Part shown: positions 7,659-11,206 of the stretch, one piece after another
Layout: each line of letters opens with the position of its first letter
Numbering within the stretch: position 1 is the stretch's first letter
Source of the DNA: Candidatus Kaiserbacteria bacterium
GTDB taxonomy: Bacteria; Patescibacteriota; Minisyncoccia; Phycocordibacterales; Phycocordibacteraceae
Direction of reading: 5' to 3'
DNA: 33,655 nt
Assembly (NCBI GenBank): GCA_011322135.1
Contig: DRNP01000005.1
Span: 1-33,655 of the forward strand
Made by a program: the position numbers and the translations under genes
Notes under the pieces: generated by a model
What the model was told of the DNA's origin: nothing
The model's database searches: none
The model's input: only the letters and a program-made list of their open reading frames with translations

Positions 7659-7685
7659 ATGTGTTCTATTGCGTTCCGCCTATTC
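7659..7685 (+). other. 16S precursor processing stem, 5' strand
   Basis: This 27-nt segment, ending where the mature 16S should begin, is complementary to 10411-10437 with a single mismatch (17 + 9 paired bases). Such stems bring the two ends of pre-16S together for RNase III-type cleavage. An overlapping local hairpin (GCAATAGAA/TTCTATTGC, 7651-7672) would compete with it. Confidence 0.85.
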
Positions 7686-8144
7686 TTAATGAGAGTTTGA
7701 TCCTAGCTCAGGGTGAACGCTGGCGGCGTGGATAAGGCATGCAAGTCGAACGGCCCTTCGGGGCAGTGGCAGACGAGGTAGTAACATGTAGGTACGCACC
7801 CCATGGTCGGGCATAGCCAGCCGAAAGGTTGGGTAATTCCCGATAGTCCCGCGAGGGTAAAGGTTTTTCGCCATGGGAGCGGCCTGCACAGTATCAGCTA
7901 GTTGGTAGGGTAAAAGCCTACCAAGGCTACGACGCTTAGGGGAGCTGAGAGGCTGACCCCCACCGATGGGACTGAGACACGGCCCATACTCCTACGGGAG
8001 GCCGCAGTCGAGAATCTTCCGCAATGGACGAAAGTCTGACGGAGCGACGCCGCGTGCTGGATGAAGTTCTTCGGGACGTAAACAGCTTTTATGTGGGACG
8101 AAATTTTTGACGGTACCATATGAATAAGGGGCTCCTAACTCTGT

Positions 8145-9265
8145 AAACATAATAACGGTTAGGAATATAAAGGAACTCTGTAAGCGAAAGCTTGCTTCAG
8201 TGGCGCTCGGTCGAAATGAGTACAGACACTCATTTCGACCCTCGCTTCTTGAAGTAATTACCTGGTGCAGCACTCGTGAGCAATTGCGAGTGGGAAAACT
8301 TGGCTATATGTTCCCGAATTGTCTTACATTGAATTTTTATTTGATGTGAGCCAACCGACCATGAGGTCGGTAGGTATACAAATCGGGGAACTCGTTGGAA
8401 GCAGCTTGGTCGAAAGACCAAAACTGCGTTTGACCAATGGGGCTGGAAATCTCTTGTGATCTGCATTGAGACATAAAATATGTTTCAAGCACAAGAGACA
8501 ATCAGCAGGGAAGTCGGGTATACTTAATAAATGGTTGGTAATCTTTCTAAACTGCAACACGATATACTTATCGGTCTTATACTTGGAGATGGATATCTCG
8601 AGTTTAATGGCTATAAGGGGACACGGTTGCAGGTAAAACAATCGGAGGAAAAGAAAGAGTATGTATTTTGGTTATATGATCATTTTGCAAAACTCACACG
8701 AACTCCTCCGCAACAACGGCGCGACACAATGCAGTGGTATTTTGGTACACAATTTTTTACGGATTTTGAGGAAATACGAAAGAATTTCTACGTAAATCGT
8801 ATAAAACATGTACCGGAAAATATTACTGAATTGTTTCAATCGCCACTAACACTTGCTGTATGGTTCATGGATGATGGACGACTTGACTATAGAGTAAAGT
8901 CACATTATGCCTACCATATCAGTACTGATTCTTTCACAGAGTCAGAGGTGCGACAGTTGCAAGTATTGTTACAAGAAAGATTCGGCATAACAGCAAAAAC
9001 TTATTTGTCGTTATGTCGAGGGAAGCGATATCCGAAGCTTTATATTGGAAAAGAAGGACGTGACATGTTTACAAAAACAGTTGCGCCATATATTCTCCCT
9101 TGCTTCAGTTACAAACTTCCACCAAATATGGAAAGTATATCTTGACCCCTCAGAGACTACACGCCGAGCTCCAATTCTAGTGTGAAAATTAGAATTGGAT
9201 GATGATATAGTCCGATCCTCATAGCGATGTGAGGGCATGTCCAAGCGACATGCCACAACAAGATG
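8145..9265 (+). other. Group I intron in 16S rRNA (about E. coli position 516)
   Basis: The intron separates CTAACTCTGT from GCCAGCAG, between E. coli 16S positions 516 and 517. The 5' exon ends in T and the intron ends in G, as group I chemistry requires. Core elements can be read in order: a P-like AATTGCGAGTGGGAAA (about 8282-8297), a Q-like AATCAGCAGGGAAG (about 8500-8513), an R-like AGACTACACGCC (9153-9164) and an S-like GATATAGTCCG (about 9204-9214). P7 pairs GACTA with TAGTC. P8 is a 10-bp stem (TCCAATTCTA/TAGAATTGGA). Two P9-type hairpins end the intron (CCTCA/TGAGG and GGCATGTC/GACATGCC). The open reading frame lies between Q and R, in the P6 loop. The internal guide sequence for P1 could not be assigned by eye. 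Confidence 0.9.
8531..9145 (+). CDS. LAGLIDADG homing endonuclease in the 16S intron
   Basis: A 204-aa protein with two LAGLIDADG-type helices: LIGLILGDGYLE (catalytic acid D20) and LTLAVWFMDDGRLD (D115). This matches the single-chain, two-motif family in which each motif supplies one metal-binding aspartate. Such enzymes cut intron-less 16S alleles at the insertion site and so spread the intron. The gene is intact and lies wholly within the intron between core elements Q and R, with no Shine-Dalgarno. An intact frame suggests recent activity or maturase function, since endonuclease genes decay quickly without selection. Confidence 0.93.
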   Translation: MVGNLSKLQHDILIGLILGDGYLEFNGYKGTRLQVKQSEEKKEYVFWLYDHFAKLTRTPPQQRRDTMQWYFGTQFFTDFEEIRKNFYVNRIKHVPENITELFQSPLTLAVWFMDDGRLDYRVKSHYAYHISTDSFTESEVRQLQVLLQERFGITAKTYLSLCRGKRYPKLYIGKEGRDMFTKTVAPYILPCFSYKLPPNMESIS

Positions 9266-9293
9266 GCCAGCAGGAGCGGTAATACAGAGGCCC

Positions 9294-9326
<33 letters not shown>

Positions 9327-10327
9327 TGTCTAGGCGGTCATATTAGTCTTTTGTAAAATCCGGGGGCTCAACCTCCGACCTGCAAGAGAAACGGTATGAC
9401 TAGAGGATATGAGAGGTACAGGGAACTCATGGTGTAGGGGTGAAATCCGTTGATATCATGGGGAACACCAAAGGCGAAGGCACTGTACTGGCATATTCCT
9501 GACGCTCACACACGAAAGCCAGGGTAGCGAAGAGGATTAGATACCCTCGTAGTCCTGGCCCTAAACGCTGCTCGCTCGCTTTACGGAGTATCGACCCTCT
9601 GTGAGGCTAAGCTAACGCGGTAAGCGAGCCGCCTGGGTAGTACGAGCGCAAGCTTAAAACTCAAAGGAATAGACGGGGACTCGCACAAGCGGTGGATCAT
9701 GTGGCTTAATTCGTAGCTAAACGAAGAACCTTACCAAGGCTAGAAACCCAACTGCACGCTTCCCGAAAGGGAAGAATCCTTCGAGGGTGTTGGGCAGGTG
9801 ATGCATGGTCGTCGTCAGTTCGTGGTTTGAACTGTTCCCTTCAGTGGGATAACGAACGCAACCCCCGTTGCCTGTTATATATGTCAGGCGAGACTGCTCC
9901 CTCACGGGAGAGGAAGGTGGGGATGACGCCAGATCAGCATGTCCCTTGATGCCTTGGGCTGCACACGTGATACAATGGTTGGTACAGAAAGATGCAATAC
10001 CGTAAGGTGGAGCAAATCTCGAAAACCAGCCTCAGTACGGATTGAGGTCTGCAACCGACCTCATGAAGATGGAATCGCTAGTAATCGTGGGTCAGCTATA
10101 CCACGGTGAATACGTTCTCGAGTCTTGTACTCACCGCCCGTCAAGTCAAGGGAGCTGGGGGTACCCGAAATTCCACCTTGCGTGGAACTACGGTAAATTC
10201 AGTAACAAGGACTAAGTCGTAACAAGGCACGGCTAGCGGAAGCTGGTCGTGGATCATATCCGAATGGAATTGATGACTTTGAAAAAAGCATCTTGTCGAT
10301 TATGTATCTTCGGATACATAGAGGAAT

Positions 10328-10350
10328 GACACTCACCTCTAAATGGTGTC
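10328..10350 (+). other. Hairpin presenting an anti-Shine-Dalgarno-like loop downstream of 16S
   Basis: GACAC (10328-10332) and GTGTC (10346-10350) enclose a 13-nt loop beginning TCACCTCT. That octamer is what one expects at the normal 16S 3' end, but it sits about 80 nt beyond GGATCA. It lies inside the pre-16S trailer. Whether it is part of a mature RNA is unknown. Confidence 0.35.
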
Positions 10351-10410
10351 CGGAAGCCGGAATGCCGTTACCGGTGCTCCTCGGAGTGCTCATATGACAC
10401 TCCGAAGAGC

Positions 10411-10437
10411 GAATAGGCGGAACGCAAGAGAACACAT
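10411..10437 (+). other. 16S precursor processing stem, 3' strand
   Basis: The segment starting GAATAGGCGGAACGC is the reverse complement of 7659-7685 with one mismatch. It closes the pre-16S stem and shows that the transcript extends at least this far. Two further local hairpins precede it in the trailer (TATGTATC-TTCG-GATACATA at about 10300-10319, and TCGGAGTG/CACTCCGA at 10381-10405). Confidence 0.85.
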
Positions 10438-10444
10438 ACAAAAA

Positions 10445-10470
10445 GCGCGCGACTACGTCGCGTGTTTTTT
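10445..10470 (+). terminator. Intrinsic terminator of the 16S transcript
   Basis: A nine-pair stem (GCGCGCGAC/GTCGCGTGT, with two G-T pairs and loop TAC) is followed directly by TTTTT. It lies just after the processing stem, so the 16S transcript ends here and is not linked to 23S. Confidence 0.85.
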
Positions 10471-10616
10471 GGTGCAGTTGAAAAAAATATGACATGTTTC
10501 AATAGCTACATCTAAATGGGGGTTTTGTACCTATTCAGGGGTACAAGACCAGATAACTCAATTATTAAGAGTTTAGTATTACAACTATTTTGAACTGTGG
10601 CCTTGTGAGCGGAAAA

Positions 10617-10641
10617 GTGAGTGAGGTTAAACCTCACTCAC
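10617..10641. repeat. 11-bp perfect inverted repeat in the 16S-tRNA spacer
   Basis: GTGAGTGAGGT (10617-10627), spacer TAA and ACCTCACTCAC (10631-10641). There is no T-run on the plus strand; a TTTT follows on the minus strand. The rest of the 10471-10794 spacer holds no gene I can support, only another small hairpin TTGTACC/GGTACAA (10525-10546). Confidence 0.6.
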
Positions 10642-10794
10642 CTAATAAATAAGTAAGATTGATTTTATATAAAATATAACAAGCACAAGTGTGAAAGTTT
10701 AATATTTACTCTCTTGTGTGCTGAATAAACGATGTTATTTTCGTAGGGAAAATCATGTTGATACTCCTTAGAACTGGCATCACATCTAAATATT

Positions 10795-10803
10795 TGTTAG
10801 TAT
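10795..10803 (+). promoter_or_regulatory. Predicted tRNA-Ile promoter (extended -10)
   Basis: The extended -10 TGTTAGTAT lies 10 nt before the tRNA 5' end, so transcription would start only a few bases upstream of the tRNA. The hexamer TAGTAT is the same as in the 16S promoter. Confidence 0.5.
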
Positions 10804-10813
10804 CGGCTGATAT

Positions 10814-10887
10814 GCGAGTGTAGCTCAGGTGGTTAGAGCACTCCCCTGATAAGGGAGAGGTCCCAGGTTCGAGTCCTGGCACTCGCA
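10814..10887 (+). tRNA. tRNA-Ile (anticodon GAT)
   Basis: A complete cloverleaf. The acceptor is GCGAGTG/CACTCGC with discriminator A, and the D arm TAGCTCAGGTGGTTAGAGCA is normal. The anticodon arm is CTCCC-CTGATAA-GGGAG with anticodon GAT, and the T arm is CCAGG-TTCGAGT-CCTGG. The 3' CCA is not encoded. In canonical rRNA operons tRNA-Ile(GAT) follows 16S directly. Here it is separated by the 16S terminator and has its own promoter, so it looks like a dismantled operon. Confidence 0.97.
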
Positions 10888-10945
10888 CAAAAATAACGAG
10901 CACGATGCGGATGCATCGGGCGAATGTATTTTTGTAGCGTGTGAC

Positions 10946-11073
10946 GGACTCGAACCGAGTCGTCGCGAAGCCAGGCGAGCAAAGCGAGCCTGTGACGACG
11001 AGTGGGGGTAGAGGGAGCGAGGTTTTTATGAACGCAAAGCGTGAAATAAAAACCCGCGAGAGTGACCGAGTCC
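10946..11073. other. Structured non-coding segment after tRNA-Ile
   Basis: Several nested complementary segments are visible: an outer GGACTCG (10946-10952)/CGAGTCC (11067-11073), a GTCGTC...CAGGC/GCCTG...GACGAC arm, and a GGTTTTTAT...ACGC/GCGT...ATAAAAACC arm (about 11021-11053). Together they could fold as a three-way junction of about 130 nt. No promoter is obvious. It could be a structured RNA, a tRNA trailer, or a composite of palindromic repeats. Nothing else in 10888-11200 looks like a gene. Confidence 0.4.
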
Positions 11074-11206
11074 TAAACAATGCAGGCACCAAAAATAAAA
11101 TAAAGAAAGCATGAAGGTGCGTTTGTGTCGCGCTCGCTTCGCTCGCGCGATTTGTGCATACAAAACTTTTCCACTGTACAAAGGTATGGACAACTCAGCA
11201 TTACTG

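Follow-up and report, generated by a model that had tools for sequence, protein, structure and literature searches.

Absence of the anti-Shine-Dalgarno sequence from the 16S rRNA genes of an order of Paceibacteria

Few parts of bacterial rRNA are as conserved as the anti-Shine-Dalgarno (aSD) sequence of 16S rRNA, by which nearly all bacteria find their gene starts. What has become of it in the 16S rRNA gene of a 33,655-nt stretch of DNA (contig DRNP01000005.1, the window in what follows) from a Candidatus Kaiserbacteria bacterium (GCA_011322135.1; 657 kb over 46 contigs, of which the window is contig C5) is the question analyzed here. An initial annotation of the window had noted that helix 45 is followed by GGATCATATCC and not by GGATCACCTCC, and that TCACCTCT (10333-10340) appears downstream, in a loop closed by GACAC and GTGTC (10328-10332 and 10346-10350). 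Direct reading of the region (...GTAACAAGGCACGGCTAGCGGAAGCTGGTCGTGGATCATATCCGAATGG...) bears out both statements. Of the two explanations then offered, loss of the aSD and an insertion of ~79 nt, our results favor the former: assembly error and insertion are both rejected as origins of the 3' feature, and we consider a true and ancient loss of the aSD, in the whole order and in many families of the Paceibacteria (Parcubacteria), a class of tiny uncultured bacteria, together with a probably trimmed ancestral trailer and mostly leaderless initiation, to be the best explanation (probability of about 0.85). According to this proposal, an ancestral pre-16S trailer of ~150-190 nt, consisting of a small hairpin, a second hairpin, a GTCGAT motif, another hairpin, a pseudoknot and two helices, would be closed by a processing stem pairing with the 5' leader and would probably be trimmed off; the aSD would have decayed within the first part of this trailer, and most genes would probably be initiated on leaderless or short-leader mRNAs.

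Distribution of 16S tail states

In 39 genomes of the same order, all the recovered helix-45 ends lack CCTCC and GGATCACCTCC was seen at none of them, which supports the loss considered in the initial annotation and extends it to the clade. A scan of GTDB, done with one genome per species and a helix-45 pattern that also permitted GGATCACCTCC, matched at least 120 contigs, with no CACCTCC among the tails listed. These contigs are labeled as Kaiserbacteria, Nomurabacteria, Zambryskibacteria, Taylorbacteria, Lloydbacteria, Yonathbacteria, Niyogibacteria, Adlerbacteria, Harrisonbacteria and Staskawiczbacteria, among others. In both sets the tail reads GGA[A/T/G][A/C/T]A..., with no CCTCC after it, and since same-order relatives and GTDB contigs agree, chance or sequencing error can be discarded as its origin. 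Two features of the gene by which aSD-less 16S rRNAs are recognized in the sense of Amin et al. (2018), a recognizable helix 45 and a tail without CCUCC or a near variant that is common to relatives, are thus present here.

The canonical tail was found in 130 of 287 genomes of a sample covering the phylum, while a hand count in a sample of the class gave about 53 canonical and about 72 non-canonical genomes, with intermediate states such as GGATCACTT, GGATCATCT and GGAACATCT. Most families in the class sample are uniform in their tail state, which points to old losses, and a mixed family (f27, with eight canonical genomes and one that is not) suggests that the aSD was lost more than once. A relocated aSD was sought in 45 aSD-less 16S genes and their tails, but no conserved aSD-like tail site was found, and the only recurring sites were the common CTCCT/ACCTC of the 16S body. 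Eroded tails (GGAACACTT, GGAACATCT) were also observed in family f93, which belongs to another class (L348-L352) and where an independent loss is possible; the tail of family f44 is GGATTACCT.

Structure and age of the 16S trailer

The position of the downstream CACCTCT (10334-10340) is occupied in relatives by TTGTCCCT, TCGTCTCT, TCGTCTTT and other sequences. Of 25 tails collected at the genus level, 19 were aligned for covariation analysis. The AGAGG/CCTCT helix shows an AU/GC exchange at its middle pair in 8 of the 19 sequences and changes on both sides in four of its five pairs; over the whole tail, two-sided changes affect 24 of 34 pairs and 97% of cells are paired. The observed value was reached by none of 500 shuffles, and pairing fell to 33-46% when the partner was slid by 1-3 columns, the latter being the fairer control because the helices had been traced by eye in the same alignment. 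Most of these helices were recovered independently by RNAalifold, which offers an alternative for the region of the small hairpin (GGA/TCC pairing, 10251-10261). Judging from this alignment, CACCTCT is not a displaced aSD tail, and CCTCT is one arm of a covarying pseudoknot within a structured RNA of ~160 nt. One sub-clade (L004, L031, L125, L142) has an additional ~60 nt in the variable hairpin, which there forms a long stem.

Complementarity between leader and trailer is the usual architecture of the stem from which pre-16S rRNA is processed. The trailer of the window is closed by such a stem, and in nearly all the aSD-less loci for which both ends are available the 16S leader is complementary to a conserved GGCGGAACAAAAGAG-like element located ~100-230 nt past helix 45. 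Canonical relatives of the class have a long trailer too, with the 3' arm of the stem at ~168-178 nt, and 9 of 16 of their tails contain GTCGR, a hairpin and the same or a very similar pseudoknot (e.g. GCGG...TCCCA-CCGC-TAAA-TGGGA) behind an intact CACCTCC. The pseudoknot module was detected in 11 of the 16 aSD-containing tails and in 2 of 48 shuffled ones at the same score. Because relatives with an aSD carry the same trailer, it predates the loss of the aSD; for this reason, the idea of a structured tail newly gained alongside that loss was rejected. The simplest view is that the trailer is probably trimmed off the mature RNA and that the aSD decayed in place.

Proteins acting at the 16S 3' end were compared between the aSD-less order and relatives with an aSD. 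YbeY has been implicated in the maturation of this end; its profile scores are 56-93 bits in the former and 81-140 in the latter (one split match apart), those of uS7, used as a control, being 174-201 and 187-211, respectively (fragmentary matches apart). The YbeY protein of the window's genome retains the HxxxHxxxxxH motif. For bS21, the cut-off was exceeded in 2 of 31 aSD-less and 12 of 31 aSD-containing genomes, and ribosomal protein S1 was recognizable in all genomes, under the curated cut-off in every case. Given that the two groups are phylogenetically separate, the divergence of YbeY and bS21 suggests co-evolution with aSD loss but does not prove it. For Era, which binds GAUCACCUCC, neither group contained a genome that exceeded the cut-off, and it was rejected as a discriminating factor; its absence may have been permissive for aSD loss without explaining it. 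This result agrees with published surveys (PMC10582724, PMC12641178). In the window's genome, the genes for S1, bS21 and YbeY are found within 5 kb (L277, contig C29, 4089-9042).

Other origins of the unusual 3' end have to be weighed against aSD loss. The genomes are metagenome assemblies and one of them, G013, contains a foreign-looking canonical 16S fragment, as would fit assembly error or bin contamination. This fragment (G013:C6:1-305), the sole canonical hit in a genome of the order, is however a partial 16S at a contig end, its helix 45 differs and G013 also holds its own aSD-less 16S, so it is probably a contaminant, and no credible canonical 16S exists in the order. With the same tail obtained in separate assemblies of more than 100 genomes, G024 (a single contig) and G170 (two contigs) among them, the chances of an artifact are practically negligible. 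The second reading of the initial annotation, in which an intron or intervening sequence of ~79 nt lies between helix 45 and a CACCTCT tail that still functions, agrees with the presence of this motif in the loop and with the frequency of insertions in rRNA genes of the Candidate Phyla Radiation (CPR; PMC11270868). It does not hold, since CACCTCT is not conserved among relatives, even those of the genus, CCTCT pairs in the covarying helix, and both intron-less and canonical relatives have the same trailer, the latter behind an intact CACCTCC. The pattern of a 3'-end insertion, with CACCTCC resuming after it and uninterrupted homologues, was not found, nor did 10255-10440 match RF00028 or any other intron family, and we regard an insertion as very improbable. 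A different possibility, which seems unlikely to us, is that the pseudoknotted trailer of ~160 nt is kept in the mature 30S subunit as a 3' extension of 16S rRNA and functionally replaces the aSD region, by docking mRNAs or shielding the platform. The strong covariation of the fold and the near-invariant single-stranded motifs in the aSD-less order, the unusual divergence of its YbeY, and the position of the processing stem, which directly adjoins the 16S 5' end but has its 3' arm ~160 nt away from helix 45, would all be in line with retention. However, the presence of the module in relatives with an aSD, whose mature 16S should end normally, argues for trimming, and a role in precursor folding or processing explains the conservation equally well.

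Translation start in aSD-less genomes

Upstream of ATG, TATAAT/TATACT shows a peak exactly at -12 in 122 of 1049 genes of the aSD-less order (11.6%; background 14) and in 41 of 679 genes of class relatives with an aSD (6.0%; background 12). This is the spacing expected for the -10 box of a transcript whose first nucleotide is the A of ATG. Genes were taken as the longest ATG-initiated open reading frames (ORFs), and the absolute percentages of leaderless genes are therefore underestimated. On this crude count, leaderless initiation is predicted to be frequent with or without an aSD, and about twice as frequent in the aSD-less group, where it may compensate for the missing aSD.

Several results weigh against an aSD loss accompanied by mostly leaderless initiation. 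Leaderless promoters are also common in the relatives that retain the aSD. In addition, Shine-Dalgarno (SD) motifs (AAGGAG, AGGAGG, GGAGGT or GAGGTG at -18 to -4) precede 16 of 390 genes (~4%) in the window's genome, G000, versus 1.0 expected (p=8e-8), and 9 of 552 genes on contigs bearing an aSD-less 16S, versus ~2.0 expected. All but one of these nine are outside the window's genus (472 genes, p=0.003), and the 80 genes of the genus show no SD excess. SD motifs are thus weakly but significantly enriched before ORFs both in G000 and in the pooled order, which is not the case in aSD-less taxa as originally described; the likeness to those taxa covers the inability to use CCUCC, not the lack of SD motifs. 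None of this excess was detectable in the complete, two-contig genome G170. The near absence of SDs pointed out in the initial annotation therefore stands for the window but not for the genome, in which most genes lack an SD and a small class with perfect and well-spaced SDs persists.

In G000 these SDs form a sharp peak at about -12 to -9, with ACAAACAAAAGGAGGTnnnn-ATG as a typical leader. The genes that bear them are patchy accessory genes, one or two per contig, and include pyrF, a dihydroorotate-dehydrogenase-like gene, an M19-peptidase-like gene, an M23 peptidase gene and several without a family match. In the M19-like family, an SD or SD-like leader was present in 11 of 11 same-genus sequences of ~26-32% protein identity (the copy of the query genome and 10 in eight other genomes, two of the 11 being near-identical), the weakest being the GCGGAGG of the G006 copy. 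Bin contamination is an unlikely source of SD genes, since such genes are present on contigs with an aSD-less 16S and recur in several genomes, and 9 of 10 genes tested for a phage origin gave no phage-specific match. Accessory genes with a perfect SD leader were seen in aSD-less genomes at L262:2557-3495, L268:9922-10767, L140 near 3186 and L246:14691-15530; pyrF, dihydroorotate-dehydrogenase-like and pyrE-like genes recur among them, and a major-vault-protein-like gene with an SD leader is found in an aSD-less Paceibacteria genome (L249:1316-3829).

Two readings of the SD genes can be considered: they come, leaders included, from relatives that use SDs, or their SDs retain some function. Function of the residual SDs in aSD-less cells through another element, be it a protein, another RNA or a minor 16S, is a tentative possibility, which would be consistent with their sharp position, with the leaders kept in the M19-like family at such low identity, and with the SDs found on pyrF of G000 and G025 and on a pyrE-like and a pyrD-like gene. 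On the other hand, their bearers are accessory genes that may have been imported (pyrF is present in 5 of 39 genomes), the pyrF homologues of L333 and L334 lack an SD, four of the five SD genes of G024 are in one island, and neither the absence of an excess in G170 nor the lack of an alternative aSD in the 45 genes scanned fits well with it. An SD-dependent translation of SD-type mRNAs in spite of the missing aSD, with the starts of a special set of accessory genes recognized by a different ribosomal component or by a structured 16S 3' extension kept in the mature RNA, appears less probable still.

Relation to known systems and layout of the locus

Loss of the aSD has been reported for 128 taxids in Bacteroidetes, Tenericutes, Proteobacteria and other groups (Amin et al., 2018; PMC6107228), with genera such as Chryseobacterium, Mycoplasma, Carsonella, Blattabacterium and Hodgkinia, whose genes are not preceded by SDs; CPR bacteria are not named in its text. 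Paceibacteria share with these taxa an intact helix 45, a tail without CCUCC and a majority of genes lacking an SD, but the loss, instead of being concentrated in a few genera and sporadic taxa, extends over an entire order and many families within a single class, and it is accompanied by intermediate tails, a trailer whose fold is conserved and a minority of genes that still have an SD. The absence of CCUCC and the scarcity of SDs also recall the category iv organisms of a study that lists 71 representative organisms without CCUCC (PMC10783764), which contains no trailer analysis and does not mention Patescibacteria or CPR in its text. Flavobacteria have SD-poor genes as well, with the bS21 region implicated, but they retain an aSD, left unused by the SD-poor mRNAs (PMC6847099), whereas the rRNA of Paceibacteria has none. 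Mammalian mitochondrial small-subunit rRNA likewise lacks an aSD and works with leaderless mRNAs (PMC10582724, PMC7797035), although in an organelle with about a dozen mRNAs and not in free-standing genomes of ~600-900 genes (estimated from genome size). CPR 16S 3' ends are described as often incompletely annotated, with nothing further said of them (PMC12641178). No published aSD loss in Patescibacteria or Parcubacteria was found in the open literature texts, and the novelty of a clade-wide loss in Paceibacteria is provisional.

A class in which tails are canonical, intermediate or fully eroded, the precursor trailer is conserved, Era is missing, YbeY has diverged, leaderless promoters are heavily used and some SD genes are left over constitutes a natural series in which to study what permits aSD loss and what replaces the aSD; why a few genes still have an SD is a puzzle in itself. 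Gene-start prediction and 16S annotation are affected for thousands of Patescibacteria genomes, as programs that look for an SD or place the 16S 3' end at CCUCC will make errors.

Table 1. Features of the 16S rRNA unit in the window
Feature	Position	Strand	Basis or remark
Processing stem of 16S precursor, 5' arm (reverse complement of 10411-10437)	7659..7685	+	inverted match
16S 5' exon	7685..8230	+	RF00177; 3' boundary approximate
16S 3' exon, through GGATCA	9240..10255	+	RF00177; 5' boundary approximate
Helix 45 (CGGCTAGCGGAAGCTGGTCGT), intact	10230..10250	+	sequence
GGATCATATCC where GGATCACCTCC expected; aSD absent	10251..10261	+	sequence, relatives
Small hairpin TCC-GAAT-GGA at aSD position (TTC...GAA in other families of the order)	10259..10268	+	
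Covarying trailer hairpin	10272..10292	+	covariation, RNAalifold
Conserved GTCGAT motif, also in relatives with an aSD	10295..10300	+	alignment
Variable hairpin	10301..10319	+	alignment
H-type pseudoknot including CACCTCT	10320..10350	+	two-sided changes in 4/5 and 7/7 pairs
Pseudoknot helix AGAGG with CCTCT	10320-10324 with 10336-10340		
Pseudoknot helix GACAC with GTGTC	10328-10332 with 10346-10350		
Covarying helix CCGG/CCGG	10357..10374	+	covariation
Long covarying hairpin TCGGAGTG...CACTCCGA	10381..10405	+	covariation
Processing stem, 3' arm, conserved motif GGCGGAACnnAAGAG	10411..10437	+	inverted match, relatives
Terminator-like inverted repeat and T run, end of 16S unit	10445..10471	+	sequence, not scored

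The match of the 16S gene to RF00177 stops at 10264. An intron splits the gene between ~8230 and ~9240 and contains an ORF of homing-endonuclease size (8531-9145) and a group I signature (RF00028 at 9052-9234, 36 bits, under the Rfam cut-off), with a second, weak RF00028 match at 8441-8545. This interruption is typical of CPR and similar to their described rRNA insertions and group I introns (PMC11270868), from which the 3' feature differs in not being an insertion. Downstream of the 16S (10440-11100) there is no 23S gene, but a terminator, tRNA-Ile and protein genes, and the rRNA operon appears to be split. A GTGAGTGAGGTTAAACCTCACTCAC-like palindromic repeat is present in at least two intergenic spots of the genome (10617-10642 in the window and ~9430-9465 in L268).
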